NCBI GenBank assembly: GCA_011391075.1
Contig: JAABRF010000006.1
Span: 1 to 64,000, forward strand
DNA: 64,000 nucleotides
Reading direction: 5' to 3'
Origin: Flavobacteriia bacterium
Lineage (GTDB): Bacteria; Bacteroidota; Bacteroidia; Flavobacteriales; Flavobacteriaceae
Part shown: positions 1,630 to 6,488 of the stretch, in pieces
Position numbering within the stretch: the stretch's first letter is position 1
Layout: every line of letters starts with the position of its first letter
Notes under the pieces: generated by a model
Seen by the model: only the letters and a program-made list of their open reading frames with translations
The model's database searches: none
Told to the model about the DNA's origin: nothing
Made by a program: the position numbers and the translations under genes

Positions 1630-2166
1630 ATGAGATATGTAATGGTCATAGACACGCTGAAATGCGTGGGATGTAGCGACTGTGTAGTAGCTTGTCAAAC
1701 CGAAAACGATGTTCCGCATGGATACTGTAGAGATTGGGTTACCGAATCTGTAACAGGAACTTATCCGGAAGTTGAGATAGAATTGAGATCTGAAAGATGT
1801 AATCAATGTGACAACTCGCCTTGCGTTAGAACTTGTCCGACAGCTGCCAGTCATATTATTGAAGGTGGTATTGTATTGGTCGATCGAGATTTGTGTATAG
1901 GATGTGGTGCTTGTGTGGAATCTTGTCCTTATGACGCTCGTTATCGTCATCCGGATTGGGGAACAATTGATAAATGTACTTTCTGTGTACACAGAGTGCA
2001 AAAAGGTCAAAATCCCGCTTGTGTATCTGTATGTCCAACCAACTGTATGTATTTTGGAGACTTAGATGACTCCAACAGTGAAGTAGCCAAACTTTTAGCA
2101 GTGAGAAAACACAAAGTTTTGGCTGAAGCAGCCGGAACATCACCCAATGTTTATTATCTAATTTAA
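1630..2166 (+). CDS. psrB: Four-cluster ferredoxin subunit PsrB/PhsB
   Basis: This 178-residue electron-transfer subunit carries 16 cysteines in the four-group arrangement of DMSO-reductase-family B subunits: C12/15/18/22, C57/60/65/69, C89/92/95/99 and C116/119/131/135. That predicts four [4Fe-4S] clusters wiring the molybdenum subunit to the membrane quinol site. Length matches PsrB/PhsB proteins. It has no signal peptide, as expected if it is exported bound to a Tat-targeted PsrA partner. Its ATG lies one base after the psrA stop, so translation is probably coupled. The next gene (NrfD type) is 94 bases downstream in the same operon. Confidence 0.92.
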   Translation: MRYVMVIDTLKCVGCSDCVVACQTENDVPHGYCRDWVTESVTGTYPEVEIELRSERCNQCDNSPCVRTCPTAASHIIEGGIVLVDRDLCIGCGACVESCPYDARYRHPDWGTIDKCTFCVHRVQKGQNPACVSVCPTNCMYFGDLDDSNSEVAKLLAVRKHKVLAEAAGTSPNVYYLI

Positions 2167-2260: not shown

Positions 2261-3211
2261 ATGAACGAAGAAGTTTTTATCAGCGGCAGAAATATTCCAC
2301 ATATAGACCCACATTTAACTTTGTGGGAATTCCCTATTTCTCTGTATTTATTCTTAGGTGGTTTAGCAGCGGGAATATTGTTGTTTTCAGCTATTTTACA
2401 CCTTATCAATAAAGAAGACGAATTTAAAGGTGCTTCCAAATGGGCACCCATGATTGTACCCTTTGCATTAGCTATTGGGCTTTTGGCCCTTATTTACGAT
2501 TTAGGGAATCCTTTGTACTCTTGGAGATTGTACACTACCATCCGCATAGAATCTCCAATGTCTTGGGGCGCTTGGGTTCTTTTAATCGTTACTCCAATGT
2601 CAATGTTATGGGTAATGACTTACGTCAGAGAATTATTCCCAAAATTGAAATATGAGACTTTCAAAATGCCTTTTTTATATAAAATAGAAGCATTTGCCAT
2701 CAAATATAAAAAATATATGGCGTTAGCTTTTTTACCTTTGACTGTGATTTTAGGTATTTACACCGGGATTTTGTTGTCGGCTTTTAATGCCCGACCTCTA
2801 TGGAATAATGCCATTTTAGGACCTTTATTCTTTGTTTCCGGATTGTCAACAGCAGCAGCTACAGTTATTTTATTTGCAAAATCAGCTCATGAAAGACATT
2901 GGTTTAGTAAAATAGATATTCTGTTAATCGTCATAGAAATTGGTTTGATTATCCATTTAATCATGGGATATTATGCCGGTAATGAAATGCAAATAGAAGC
3001 TGTTAAAATTTTAGTTGGTGGCGATTTTACAACCATGTTTTTTGGCTTTTTGGTGGTATTAGGTTTATTAGTACCCTTAATTTTAGAGATTTTTGAACTA
3101 GCAGGATTCAAAGTTCCGGTTATCATTCCTGCCATTTTAATTTTAATTGGTGGATTGGTTTTCAGAGTTCTGATGGTAGAAGCCGGTCAAATCACGCGCG
3201 TTCTTTATTAA
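2261..3211 (+). CDS. psrC: NrfD-family membrane subunit, PsrC-like quinol site
   Basis: This 316-residue integral membrane protein has about eight hydrophobic segments and belongs to the NrfD/PsrC family. A short hydrophilic N-terminus (ISGRNIPHIDPHL) precedes the first helix, LYLFLGGLAAGILLF. PsrC anchors PsrAB to the inner membrane and holds the quinone/quinol site. Length and position directly after the ferredoxin gene match PsrABC. The ATG at 2261 follows an AT-rich leader without a Shine-Dalgarno sequence, which is normal in this phylum. The nearest alternatives are the membrane subunits of sulfite dehydrogenase (SoeC) and tetrathionate reductase (TtrC), which are of the same superfamily. 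Confidence 0.88.
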   Translation: MNEEVFISGRNIPHIDPHLTLWEFPISLYLFLGGLAAGILLFSAILHLINKEDEFKGASKWAPMIVPFALAIGLLALIYDLGNPLYSWRLYTTIRIESPMSWGAWVLLIVTPMSMLWVMTYVRELFPKLKYETFKMPFLYKIEAFAIKYKKYMALAFLPLTVILGIYTGILLSAFNARPLWNNAILGPLFFVSGLSTAAATVILFAKSAHERHWFSKIDILLIVIEIGLIIHLIMGYYAGNEMQIEAVKILVGGDFTTMFFGFLVVLGLLVPLILEIFELAGFKVPVIIPAILILIGGLVFRVLMVEAGQITRVLY

Positions 3212-3288: not shown

Positions 3289-3816
3289 ATGAAAATTAAT
3301 CCAGATAAACAACATGTATATTGGAATCCTTATTTTGCAGGTTTCCTAATGGGAATTATCTTATTACTCACTTTTTACCTTACCGGTAGAGGTTTGGGTG
3401 CATCGGGTGCTGCAAAGGCTATTGTTACACAAACTGTTCATACGGTTGCACCAACCCATACTGAAAACAACACCTATTACGCCGAGCAGTTTAAAGGCGG
3501 CAAAACCCCTATCAGCAATTGGTTGGTGTTTGAAGTAATTGGAATTGTAATTGGAGCTTTTATTTCTGGATCATTATCGGGAAGAGCCTTTTTCAGGGTA
3601 CAACATTCCCCTAAAATTACCAGCAGACGCCGACTTTGGTTTGCCCTTCTCGGTGGAGCTTTATTCGGATTTGGCGCTCAATTTGCCAAAGGTTGTACCA
3701 GTGGCGCAGCATTGAGTGGAATGGCAGTATTGTCATTAGGTGGATTCATAGCCATGTTATCTATTTTCGGTGGAGCTTATTTATTTGCTTACTTCTTTAG
3801 AAAACTTTGGATTTAA
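3289..3816 (+). CDS. YeeE/YedE-family sulfur transport protein, first half
   Basis: This 175-residue membrane protein has about four hydrophobic segments and the family signature FAKGCTSG, whose cysteine (C136) is the only one in the chain. YeeE/YedE proteins move thiosulfate or sulfane sulfur across the inner membrane; in the characterised transporter YeeE/TsuA, conserved cysteines line the path. Full-length YeeE is about 350 residues. Here the fold is split over two adjacent genes, a known arrangement (PmpAB-like), so this protein and the next probably act together. A hydrophilic stretch around residues 45-75 probably lies outside the membrane. It is co-oriented with psrABC, with a 77-base gap. 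Confidence 0.85.
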   Translation: MKINPDKQHVYWNPYFAGFLMGIILLLTFYLTGRGLGASGAAKAIVTQTVHTVAPTHTENNTYYAEQFKGGKTPISNWLVFEVIGIVIGAFISGSLSGRAFFRVQHSPKITSRRRLWFALLGGALFGFGAQFAKGCTSGAALSGMAVLSLGGFIAMLSIFGGAYLFAYFFRKLWI

Positions 3817-3900: not shown

Positions 3901-4488
3901 ATGGGACCATTAATACCAGAAATCATTTCACCCGAATGGAATAACATCATCGCTATCGTTTTAGGGATAGCTTTTGGATATGTACTTGAATCAGCTGGAT
4001 TTTCTTCTTCAAGAAAATTAGTAGGCGTATTTTACGGCTATGATTTCGCTGTTTTAAGAGTGTTTTTTACTGCAGCTATAACCGCCTCTATAGGTCTATT
4101 GTTTATGGACTATTTTGGATGGGTAAATATGGCTGCATTGGACGGACTTCCCGCTAGAGTTTATCCTATTATCGTAGGAGGAATCATCATGGGATTGGGA
4201 TTTGTAACCGGTGGTTTTTGCCCCGGAACATGCATAACAGCTATAGGTATCGGCAAATTGGACGGTTATGTCTTCTTTGGCGGTATTATATTAGGTGTAT
4301 TTGTGTTTTCGGAAATGTTTCCTCTTTTTGAAAACTTTTACAATTCAAGCAATTTAGGCGATGTATCGGTACCTCAGTACTTCAACATAAGTCCTTATTG
4401 GTTCATGGTAGGGGTTTCCGTCATCGCAATTGTAGCTTTCTATGTTACACTTCAAATCCGCAAACGCATTAAAAAAGTTGAATATTAG
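3901..4488 (+). CDS. YeeE/YedE-family sulfur transport protein, second half
   Basis: This 195-residue membrane protein with about five hydrophobic segments carries the family motif GGFCPGTC (C107 and C111) followed by ITAIGIGKLDG. It is the partner of the preceding 175-residue half. Together they supply the KGCTSG and GFCPGTC cysteine motifs that full-length YeeE/YedE has in one chain. It probably passes thiosulfate or persulfide sulfur between periplasm and cytoplasm by thiol exchange. The direction of transport cannot be told from sequence. The stop lies about 50 bases before the first rhodanese gene of the same operon. Confidence 0.85.
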   Translation: MGPLIPEIISPEWNNIIAIVLGIAFGYVLESAGFSSSRKLVGVFYGYDFAVLRVFFTAAITASIGLLFMDYFGWVNMAALDGLPARVYPIIVGGIIMGLGFVTGGFCPGTCITAIGIGKLDGYVFFGGIILGVFVFSEMFPLFENFYNSSNLGDVSVPQYFNISPYWFMVGVSVIAIVAFYVTLQIRKRIKKVEY

Positions 4489-4541: not shown

Positions 4542-5258
4542 ATGAAAAAACGATATATTTTTCTCGCATTAGTCCCGATAGTTTTATCTATTTTATTGGC
4601 TCTTTTACCTGATAAAAGTAATTCGATTGATGCCAAAAGAATCGCTAAAAATCTCAAATCGGCTAAATACACAGGAGTTTCCCCCGATAAATTGTTGTTG
4701 GAAGCTGTAAATAATGACCGCTTTATACAACCTGATGAATTGGCAACAGTCATCATGGGACAAGATCCATCTTATATGTTAATCGATTTAAGAGATGCCG
4801 GTCAATTTGAAAAATTCACATTGCCTGGAGCTATCAATATTCCTTCTGATCAAATAATGACTGAAGAAAATAGAGCTACTTTTGAATCGGATGCCTATAA
4901 ATATGTTTTAATTTCAAATGGCACCATCCTTTCCGATCAAGTTTGGATGATTCTCCGCAGAGCAGGTTATGATAATCTAAAAGTCCTCAACGGCGGTTTG
5001 AATCAATTTTATCAATTGTATCTCAATCCACCCAAACCAGGTGATTTGGATCCTAGTGAAGCATTTGACAACTATCGATTCCGCAAAGCAGTAGGCGCAC
5101 ATTTGGGTTTGCCAAATCCCGATGAATTTATTCCGGGTGGAAGTGCTGCGGTTGTTGCACCTAGTGTCACAACAGAAACGGCAAAATCTGCAACTAAAAC
5201 GCCTGCCAAAAAAGTCGTGCCTGTAAAAGCAGCCGGTGGTGGCGATGAAGGTTGTTAA
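4542..5258 (+). CDS. Membrane-anchored rhodanese-fold protein with C-terminal GGGDEGC tail (I)
   Basis: This 238-residue protein has one N-terminal membrane anchor (residues 1-22, MKKR start, so the rest is predicted periplasmic), then a rhodanese-like domain (about 62-160; MLIDLRDAGQF and KVLNGGL are recognisable), a Thr/Ala/Lys/Pro-rich linker (about 203-230) and the tail AGGGDEGC. The catalytic-loop cysteine of active rhodaneses (xCxxG) is replaced by Ser125 (ISNGT). The only cysteine in the mature chain is the last residue, C238. I prefer the ATG at 4542 over an in-frame TTG at 4512 because it gives a compact signal anchor. It is probably a non-classical sulfur carrier or partner of the adjacent Psr and YeeE/YedE proteins. 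The function is inference; the missing cysteine and the tail are seen directly. Confidence 0.88.
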   Translation: MKKRYIFLALVPIVLSILLALLPDKSNSIDAKRIAKNLKSAKYTGVSPDKLLLEAVNNDRFIQPDELATVIMGQDPSYMLIDLRDAGQFEKFTLPGAINIPSDQIMTEENRATFESDAYKYVLISNGTILSDQVWMILRRAGYDNLKVLNGGLNQFYQLYLNPPKPGDLDPSEAFDNYRFRKAVGAHLGLPNPDEFIPGGSAAVVAPSVTTETAKSATKTPAKKVVPVKAAGGGDEGC

Positions 5259-5259
5259 T
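5229..5259 (+). repeat. 31-bp block identical to 6020-6050
   Basis: The last codons, stop codon and two following bases of the first rhodanese gene are identical, base for base, to 6020-6050 at the end of the second. The encoded residues are AAGGGDEGC. Identity includes all synonymous positions, while the rest of the two genes has diverged strongly. Confidence 0.9.
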
Positions 5260-5356
5260 AATGCAAGGTATTACAAATACATTTTAAAGTTTAGTTTTAA
5301 ATATTCAAACTTAAAGAAGTAATATCCATTCAATCAATAAAATAAAATAACAAATT

Positions 5357-6049
5357 ATGAGCGATAATAAAACCGTTAATCACATGATAGAATTAACTAA
5401 AACCAATAGAATCACTTTTGGAGTGATTATCGTTTTAGTGATTTTATTATTAGGTTTTCTATTTTTAAAACCTGTAAAATATGCTTTCAATACAACTCTT
5501 GATAAAGAAATAGCTGATTTAAAAGTAGCCGATTATCAAATTTCTCCACAAGTATTGGCTCAAGCTTTATTGAAAAAAGACGCTTCTATGGTGTGTGTTG
5601 ATGTACGCAGTCCTTTTGAATTTGCCAAAGGACATTTACCCGAAGCACAAAACATCTATAAAGTCAATCTTTTCTCTGATGATCAAATTGAATTCTTCAA
5701 AGACTTAAAAAAAGGGAATAAAACAGCTGTTTTGTATGGCGGTTCGGCTTCTGAAGCCAATGTTCCTTTTATGATTTTGAAACAAATGGGCATTGATAAT
5801 GTAAAGTACTTGACAGTAGGTTATGAAGTGATGAAAAGTGGTAATTGGGCAGAAATAGCAGCCAATACAACTCAATATAACGATGAAACACCCATAGTTG
5901 ATTTTGCTAAGTTCATTTCTGATGCTCAAATACAAAACCAACCTACTGGAACAGCTACTGATAATGCTCCCAAACCTGAAATTTCCAAACCTAAAACCGT
6001 TGTCAAACCAGCCGCTCCGGCAGCCGGTGGTGGCGATGAAGGTTGTTAA
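5357..6049 (+). CDS. Membrane-anchored rhodanese-fold protein with C-terminal GGGDEGC tail (II)
   Basis: This 230-residue protein has the same architecture as the preceding gene: a basic N-terminus, one membrane helix (about 20-38), a rhodanese-like domain (about 63-160; VDVRSPFEFAKGHLPEAQN is well conserved), a Lys/Pro/Ala linker (about 200-222) and the tail AAGGGDEGC ending in C230. In the catalytic loop the sequence is VLYGGSAS, so Gly128 stands where the nucleophilic cysteine should be. C80 lies in the strand before the VDVRSP motif, not in the active loop. It is last in the operon and followed by a strong terminator. The shared tail suggests that it and the first rhodanese serve the same partner. 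It could be a sulfur-relay protein, or a structural protein that kept only the fold. Confidence 0.88.
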   Translation: MSDNKTVNHMIELTKTNRITFGVIIVLVILLLGFLFLKPVKYAFNTTLDKEIADLKVADYQISPQVLAQALLKKDASMVCVDVRSPFEFAKGHLPEAQNIYKVNLFSDDQIEFFKDLKKGNKTAVLYGGSASEANVPFMILKQMGIDNVKYLTVGYEVMKSGNWAEIAANTTQYNDETPIVDFAKFISDAQIQNQPTGTATDNAPKPEISKPKTVVKPAAPAAGGGDEGC

Positions 6050-6066: not shown

Positions 6067-6100
6067 AAAAAAACGCATCTTATAGGGATGCGTTTTTTTT
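6067..6100 (+). terminator. Terminator of the sulfur operon
   Basis: CGCATC (6074-6079) pairs with GATGCG (6087-6092), extended by A-run/T-run pairing on both sides, and ends in eight T's. It lies 18 bases after the second rhodanese stop. The flanking A-run makes it plausible on both strands. Confidence 0.85.
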
Positions 6101-6141: not shown

Positions 6142-6372
6142 CCTATAAAAAAGGTAGATGAACCTATAAAACCGGTAGGTGAACCTATCAAAAAGGTAGG
6201 TGAACCTATCAAAAAGGTAGGTGAACCTATCAAAAAGGTAGGCGAACCTATCAAAAAGGTAGGTGAACCTATCAAAAAGGTAGGCGAACCTATGAAAAAG
6301 GTAGGTGAACCTATCAAAAAGGTAGGTGAACCTATAAAACTGGTAGGTGAGCCTATCAAAAAGGTAGGTAAA
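6142..6372. repeat. 21-bp tandem repeat, 11 units
   Basis: Eleven head-to-tail 21-bp units lie between the sulfur-operon terminator and the convergent helicase gene. Consensus unit parts are CCTATCAAAAA then GGTAGGTGAA. Units at 6184, 6205, 6247 and 6310 are identical; those at 6226 and 6268 differ only by T to C at position 18. The edge units are more diverged, as in expanding arrays. Because 21 is a multiple of three, the array is open in frames on both strands (heptads KKVGEPI on plus, FLIGSPT on minus). Each unit also has self-complementary arms, CCTATC and GGTAGG, around an A5 loop. The array starts right after the operon terminator. I treat it as a non-coding array. Confidence 0.95.
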
Positions 6373-6488
6373 CCCAGATAAATGGAAGCCTAGCCTTGAT
6401 ACATTAATACATTACCTAGATATCATCAAGTTGAAAAAGCCATTTCTTATAGAAGTCAAGTGCATCACACAGCTATTTTCCCGCCACA

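Follow-up and report, generated by a model that had tools for sequence, protein, structure and literature searches.

Membrane-anchored pseudo-rhodaneses with a conserved C-terminal Gly-Cys arm: probable sulfur carriers beside sulfur oxidoreductases and YeeE/YedE-type transporters

What can a rhodanese do once its catalytic cysteine is gone, and why should two such proteins, encoded side by side, end in the same glycine-rich peptide with cysteine as the very last residue? These questions are raised by a locus in the window, the whole stretch of 64,000 nucleotides of Flavobacteriia DNA that we analysed. The window begins at base 1 of its contig (C71), and the source assembly (G000) amounts to 2.25 Mb and is about 68% complete by estimate. 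Its plus strand carries psrA-psrB-psrC-pmpA-pmpB-rhd1-rhd2 in this order, followed by a terminator-like hairpin (Table 1); the scanned stretch has three such terminator-like sites, compared with a mean of 1.0 in shuffles. A first-pass annotation, made from the sequence alone, had proposed that the two rhodanese-fold proteins carry persulfide on their terminal cysteines and relay sulfur between the YeeE/YedE pair and the Psr enzyme.

Table 1. Positions of the cluster genes, the tail codons and the closing hairpin within the window.
Feature	Position	Strand	Basis
PsrA/PhsA-type molybdopterin oxidoreductase, 5' end lost at contig edge	18..1628	+	PF00384, PF01568
PsrB-type 4Fe-4S subunit	1630..2166	+	PF13247 and Fer4 families
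PsrC/NrfD-type membrane subunit	2261..3211	+	PF03916
PmpA-type half of YeeE/YedE sulfur transporter, sole Cys at 136	3289..3816	+	PF04143, C-terminal half of profile
PmpB-type half of YeeE/YedE sulfur transporter, Cys107 in GGFCPGT	3901..4488	+	PF04143, N-terminal half
Rhd1, TM-anchored pseudo-rhodanese, loop Ser125, C-terminal arm, 238 aa	4542..5258	+	ORF, Pfam, AlphaFold2
GGGDEGC codons of Rhd1, terminal Cys238	5235..5255	+	Motif position; within 31-bp exact match with Rhd2
Rhd2, TM-anchored pseudo-rhodanese, loop Gly128, C-terminal arm, 230 aa	5357..6049	+	ORF, Pfam
GGGDEGC codons of Rhd2, terminal Cys230	6026..6046	+	Motif position
Terminator-like hairpin, 15 pairs, closing the cluster 3' of rhd2	6067..6099	+	Hairpin scan

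The surroundings of the two proteins are those of sulfur metabolism. The subunits that define PsrABC or PhsABC, that is, a molybdenum enzyme, an Fe-S protein and an NrfD-type membrane protein, lie together in the cluster; for the fragmentary psrA product, the top NCBIfam model is thiosulfate reductase PhsA, at 351.6 bits and below the cut-off of 694. PmpA and PmpB belong to the YeeE/YedE family (PF04143 scores of 98 and 61.1 bits against a cut-off of 27). Cys136 of PmpA aligns opposite a TsuA cysteine in the GGCNIG segment (alignment to 8j4c/6leo), and the counterpart of PmpB Cys107 is invariant in 63 relatives fused to a rhodanese. No solved structure was found by sequence search with PmpB or a PmpB profile, so the assignment of its channel cysteine rests on this conservation and on the relevant passages of PMC11582611. 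These match PmpA and PmpB to the two halves of YeeE and equate their cysteines with Cys293 and Cys91 of TsuA, both of which are needed for TsuA function.

Rhd1 and Rhd2 both match the rhodanese family in Pfam (PF00581; 48.2 and 51.3 bits against a cut-off of 22.2), and neither has the active-loop cysteine (CxxGxR type) of a catalytic rhodanese or thiosulfate sulfurtransferase. As the first-pass annotation had noticed, the loop position is taken by Ser125 in Rhd1 (VLISNGT) and by Gly128 in Rhd2 (VLYGGSA), and both proteins end in GGGDEGC with a terminal cysteine that is the only one in Rhd1 (Cys238); Rhd2 has Cys80 and Cys230. The shared C-terminus extends to AAGGGDEGC. Full-length identity between the two proteins is about 23–31%, and the 3' ends of their genes are an exact DNA match over 31 bp across the tail codons. 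In the whole assembly, the DNA motif encoding GGGDEGC occurs at two sites only, namely these two gene ends.

Each protein has one N-terminal hydrophobic segment (a TM helix). In the AlphaFold2 model of Rhd1, the rhodanese domain (residues ~61–190) has a pLDDT above 90 and the arm (residues 191–238) one of about 47–60. The models show a long C-terminal helix on the rhodanese domain, and the arm is of low confidence in both, as expected of the flexible tail that it is predicted to be. Foldseek matched solved rhodaneses (e.g. 3nhv and 3o3w, with TM-scores by target of about 0.7–0.8). For relatives in which PmpB and the rhodanese are fused, the PmpB part of the model was of low to moderate confidence and was left uninterpreted. 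Between PmpB and rhodanese, the fusions contain a Lys/Arg-rich loop and one more TM helix, and Rhd2 and Rhd3 of two other genomes (G001 and G017) have lipoprotein-type N-termini (a cysteine after a hydrophobic stretch). These features favour a periplasmic location and point to a rhodanese domain that faces the periplasm. Membrane tethering, a flexible arm and a SoxY-like Gly-Cys end, all part of the original proposal, hold.

Is the arm a peculiarity of this genome? A survey of 396 genomes of the order gave five with an adjoining pair of clear relatives (G196, G276, G109, G001 and G017), and in all five Gly-Cys lies at or beside the C-terminal end of both paired proteins. The tails are VEVEEGGC twice in G196, RAAEGGC and KGAEGGC in G276, RKPEGGC and KKPEGGC in G109, and AVSGGCG three times each in G001 and G017, where the third copy belongs to a two-domain rhodanese downstream. 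This third rhodanese (Rhd3) keeps canonical loops (CKTGQT and CYTGQN), and its tail matches those of its degenerate neighbours. It is the Gly-Cys end that is shared; the exact heptapeptide GGGDEGC is local to the source genome. Elsewhere in the source assembly (G000:C65; L001, L002 and L008), more two-domain rhodanese genes lie side by side, and the ORFs read there lack a Gly-Cys tail.

A wider survey of the phylum used a profile of Rhd1 relatives (A1) on 395 genomes, taking matches down to about E 7e-14; weaker matches, mostly other rhodaneses, were left out of the counts. Cysteine is last or second-last in 70 of the 71 aligned members, and three further members, overlooked by ORF calling, end in EGC or GGC. 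The lone exception (L165) is a frameshifted gene with the arm SKPKKKKREGC in the next frame, and it was rejected as a true tail-less member. The loop residue is serine in 26 of the 71, alanine in 21, glycine in 19, cysteine in 4 and aspartate in 1, so that the loop cysteine is missing in 67. The four that have it, two of which are canonical Rhd3 domains, count against the carrier reading.

Profile A1 contained the tail, and a second set was therefore picked by PmpB alignment alone, without any rhodanese sequence. The best 80 of 521 relatives in a scan of named genomes were kept, all nearest the fused type; more distant PmpB proteins may be without the arm. Its members are fusions of PmpB to a rhodanese and come from Ignavibacteria, from Bacteroidales (Draconibacterium orientale NZ_CP007451 and Carboxylicivirga linearis) and from bins labelled KSB1, LCP-89, Acidobacteriota, Chthonomonadia and Fibrobacteria (bin labels as deposited). 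All 77 intact members among the best 80 of 521 have a Gly-Cys end (GGC 59, GGCS 11, GGCG 4, GGCA 2 and VGC 1), and none of these 77 has a loop cysteine. No second cysteine occurs within the last 190 residues in 47 of the 78 aligned sequences from the same best 80. The phylum and PmpB sets overlap, and their counts are not additive. By comparison, cysteine is found in the last three residues of 2 of the 43 other rhodanese-type ORFs of the phylum survey, neither of which ends in Gly-Gly-Cys. Since every intact relative read keeps it, the terminal cysteine is not there by chance, and the proposed arm comes through this comparison: the relatives retain the terminal thiol and have mostly lost that of the loop.

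Column by column, the tail is also among the most constant parts of these proteins. Only four positions of the rhodanese half never vary among the 63 fusions, namely Asp250, Pro280, Gly397 and Cys398, and the terminal Gly-Cys outranks almost all of that half in conservation; in 54 Rhd parts, only Pro95, Gly233 and Cys238 are invariant. Judged from these sequences, the family is widespread, and what it conserves is a Gly-Cys at the C-terminus (GGC, EGC, GGCG, GGCS etc.) on a flexible, mostly Lys-rich linker. A Lys-rich tail as an essential feature was rejected, given EVEEGGC in G196 and AAGGGDEGC in the window. Four loci (L134, L142, L145 and L164) have separate PmpA, PmpB and Rhd genes with no adjoining Psr, and their tails read (V/M)RMGC instead of GGC or EGC.

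We put at roughly 0.7 the probability that Rhd1 and Rhd2 are membrane-anchored periplasmic carriers of sulfane sulfur that act in the manner of SoxY, with a rhodanese fold devoid of its catalytic cysteine; the pseudo-rhodanese family as a whole probably carries sulfur on a swinging arm. We infer the cargo and chemistry as follows. The terminal thiol would hold sulfane sulfur as a persulfide or S-sulfonate, and the degenerate rhodanese domain would dock or orient the protein. At one end of its swing, the arm would meet the active site of PsrA or of an octaheme cytochrome, as the periplasmic sulfur oxidoreductase, and at the other, where present, the cysteine-lined PmpA/PmpB channel (PmpA Cys136 and PmpB Cys107 in the window). 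Where two or three carriers of a cluster have matched tails, they would share their docking sites, and in G001 and G017 one of the three proteins, the one with a catalytic rhodanese loop, could load the other two. This third gene in two genomes, for a two-domain rhodanese with canonical loop cysteines (L074:7025-8146 and L075:9030-10148), encodes a KRKKKAVSGGCG tail that is the same as in its two degenerate neighbours or one residue off, and its product is a candidate loader of these carriers.

The model for this reading is SoxY, whose C-terminal GGCGG cysteine is an established binding site for the sulfur substrate (passages on SoxY in PMC6067878). Transfer from that cysteine to the channel cysteines of the YeeE-like SoxT is proposed as conceivable in the SoxT passages of PMC11582611. 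The pseudo-rhodaneses resemble SoxY in their likely periplasmic location, in a cysteine that lies at most two residues from a C-terminus rich in glycine (GGCG in G001 and G017; GGCS, GGCG or GGCA in many fusions) and in having sulfur redox enzymes as partners, and the proposed recipient of SoxY is likewise of the YeeE family (same passages of PMC6067878 and PMC11582611). Their ends (GGC, GGCG, GGCS and EGC) are related but not identical to GGCGG. Unlike SoxY, they have a rhodanese fold, a long Lys/Ala/Pro linker, and a TM anchor, a lipoprotein-like N-terminus or a fused transporter. Neither the SoxY family nor its fold was found in the Rhd proteins (Pfam gives Rhodanese, plus Sulf_transp in the fusions, and the fold matches are rhodaneses), and the clusters that we read have no recognisable Sox partner genes. 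The use of a terminal Gly-Cys arm by a fold unrelated to that of SoxY looks like convergence. The anatomy would be that of a peptide-arm sulfur carrier, a kind already known, in a rhodanese-based variant that appears new.

The terminal cysteine could instead serve in disulfide formation, metal binding or covalent attachment. In particular, it might be structural, forming a disulfide between Rhd1 and Rhd2 or within a homodimer, or a covalent tether to PsrA, PmpA or PmpB. Such a role would suit paired proteins with matched tails in one cluster, a periplasm that allows disulfides, and the fact that the terminal cysteine is the only one in most Rhd1-type proteins. We consider it improbable, however: most fusion loci among the best 80 of 521 PmpB relatives have a single arm, and hence no partner arm to match, and glycine spacing with a last or second-last position is more like a mobile carrier thiol than a structural disulfide. 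Moreover, the counterparts of the PmpA and PmpB cysteines in TsuA lie in the channel and are required there (TsuA passages of PMC11582611).

If the arm carries sulfur, the company it keeps should tell for whom. The family occurs in three settings. The first is that of the window, with PsrABC, PmpA, PmpB and Rhd. The second, found in 68 of the 77 loci from the best 80 of 521 PmpB relatives, has a cytochrome with at least four CxxCH motifs (eight in two representatives) and a b-type cytochrome upstream of PmpA and the PmpB-Rhd fusion. In D. orientale, the former scores 586 bits with TIGR04315, the octaheme tetrathionate reductase family (cut-off 375), and the cytochrome b beside it is thiosulfate-reductase-like; an enzyme of this family neighbours the fusion form, where the window cluster has PsrABC instead. 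The third is PsrABC with two Rhd in G196, a 99% complete genome in which no Sulf_transp match was found. These arms without a Sulf_transp gene mean that feeding PmpAB cannot be the sole role. An arm serving PmpAB only was rejected on this ground, and one serving Psr only because nearly all fusion loci (best 80 of 521 PmpB relatives) have no adjoining Psr. As the arm is constant while redox enzyme and transporter are exchangeable, the carrier would be a general one and not a special case of Psr and YeeE. The linkage to Psr and YeeE/YedE genes that the first-pass annotation drew does hold, but the arm is not specific to that combination, and the relay from Psr to YeeE is one setting among several.

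That these proteins form a new class of membrane-tethered carriers is, in our estimate, a better-than-even proposition: their thiol would have moved to a SoxY-like arm, often fused to a channel, and they would be a periplasmic hub between PsrABC or octaheme cytochromes and YeeE/YedE-type transport in Bacteroidota, Ignavibacteria and several other phyla.

The same partners bear on the nature of the cargo. A module for selenium or tellurium, or for sulfur and selenium together, is an unlikely alternative to one specific for sulfur. PmpA and the fusion protein do have weak scores with selenium-linked YedE models, and the cytochrome upstream of PsrA in G109 (L073) is nearest to ExtM, which belongs to a selenite/tellurite reduction operon, with a score of 257.5 bits that falls far short of the cut-off of 800. 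However, every such match falls under the curated cut-offs, PmpA matches TsuA thiosulfate transporter models too, and the partner enzymes are either PsrABC or cytochromes of the Otr family accompanied by a thiosulfate-reductase-like cytochrome b. A divergent multihaem cytochrome of ~630 aa lies upstream of psrA at L071:5367-7265 and L073:12954-14858, with a similar gene in L072; its counterpart position in the window falls past the contig end.

Could the pseudo-rhodanese be a regulatory or gating subunit of PmpAB, with an arm that plugs or senses the channel and bears no cargo? Fusion to PmpB in a large clade would agree with this, and a mostly Lys-rich tail could occupy an anion-conducting vestibule. 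The genome G196 makes such a role quite unlikely: both of its arms persist in the transporter's absence, and its tail is acidic with Gly-Cys still kept. A comparable arrangement is TsuA-TsuB (YeeE-YeeD) of E. coli and Spirochaeta thermophila, in which a YeeE/YedE-family transporter likewise has a Cys-bearing sulfur protein of its own; the two can form one polypeptide, as in the TsuA-TsuB chain of 8j4c. TsuB is a cytosolic protein of TusA type, whereas the transporter described here comes in two halves, PmpA and PmpB, and its partner would be a pseudo-rhodanese on the periplasmic side. TusA/YeeD, the known cytosolic partner of YeeE, was not found in G276 and G109 (99–100% complete), in G196 or in the incomplete G000; G001 and G017 have one TusA-family match each. 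That it was not found in four of the six genomes counts against a simple import and hand-over route as in E. coli or Spirochaeta.

Returning to sulfur carriage, the tails within a cluster change in concert. Aligned from the cysteine, they are 90% identical between neighbours of the same genome, compared with 40% between orthologues of different genomes. Rhd1 and Rhd2 of G001 have their last 22 residues in common, and their last 18 codons have seven synonymous and no non-synonymous differences; for the pairs in the window and in G196, the identity of the ends extends to the DNA. This pattern suggests repeated homogenisation of the tails, perhaps by gene conversion, together with selection on the protein, and it fits tails that are required to match common docking sites. 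The tail as a mere DNA-level repeat of two adjacent genes was rejected, in view of synonymous codon differences elsewhere and of single-copy members that keep Gly-Cys. It is very improbable that the matched tails are a functionless by-product of gene conversion after tandem duplication, as the 31-bp match in the window and a near-identical 3' end in the paired genes of G196 might suggest, since the tails of G001, G017 and G109 are alike in protein with codons that differ almost only synonymously, and single-copy members across several phyla keep Gly-Cys. A reading by conversion only is contradicted for the Gly-Cys end; conversion is likely as a route that homogenises the rest of the linker.

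A rhodanese-like partner of a Psr enzyme has a precedent. Sud of Wolinella succinogenes is a rhodanese-like periplasmic polysulfide-sulfur transferase that feeds PsrA of PsrABC, and it uses a catalytic cysteine of the rhodanese type. Rhd1 and Rhd2 are likewise rhodanese-like and stand with PsrABC, but have lost the loop cysteine and bear a terminal one instead, in a comparison of described properties. DsrC and LbpA are other carriers with a functional cysteine close to the C-terminus, which is, or has been proposed to be, their sulfur site (for LbpA, the passages on it in PMC6067878); unlike the pseudo-rhodaneses, both are cytoplasmic, and their folds are unrelated. Open-access passages on YeeE, SoxT, cable bacteria, octaheme reductases and rhodaneses do not describe such a Gly-Cys arm, which may be reported elsewhere, and the family is apparently undescribed so far. 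If our reading is true, an enzyme fold was turned into the body of a carrier through relocation of its thiol. It would also supply the link that the field calls missing, namely how YeeE/YedE-type channels are presented with sulfane sulfur by enzymes of the periplasm; in the transport passages of the SoxT paper, the import of sulfur into the cytoplasm is described as poorly understood (PMC11582611). As D. orientale and C. linearis are cultured carriers of the arm, the idea is directly testable.

Two further observations concern the end of the cluster. In G109, the next gene after rhd2 encodes a regulator of Crp/Fnr type (L073:5956-6603), and G276 has a similar one (L013), which suggests dedicated regulation of the cluster; it is absent from the corresponding place in the window. 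Directly 3' of the hairpin, the window has a 21-bp tandem repeat (6142-6374; 11.1 copies, 90% match) with the consensus CCTATCAAAAAGGTAGGTGAA, which reads GEPIKKV.
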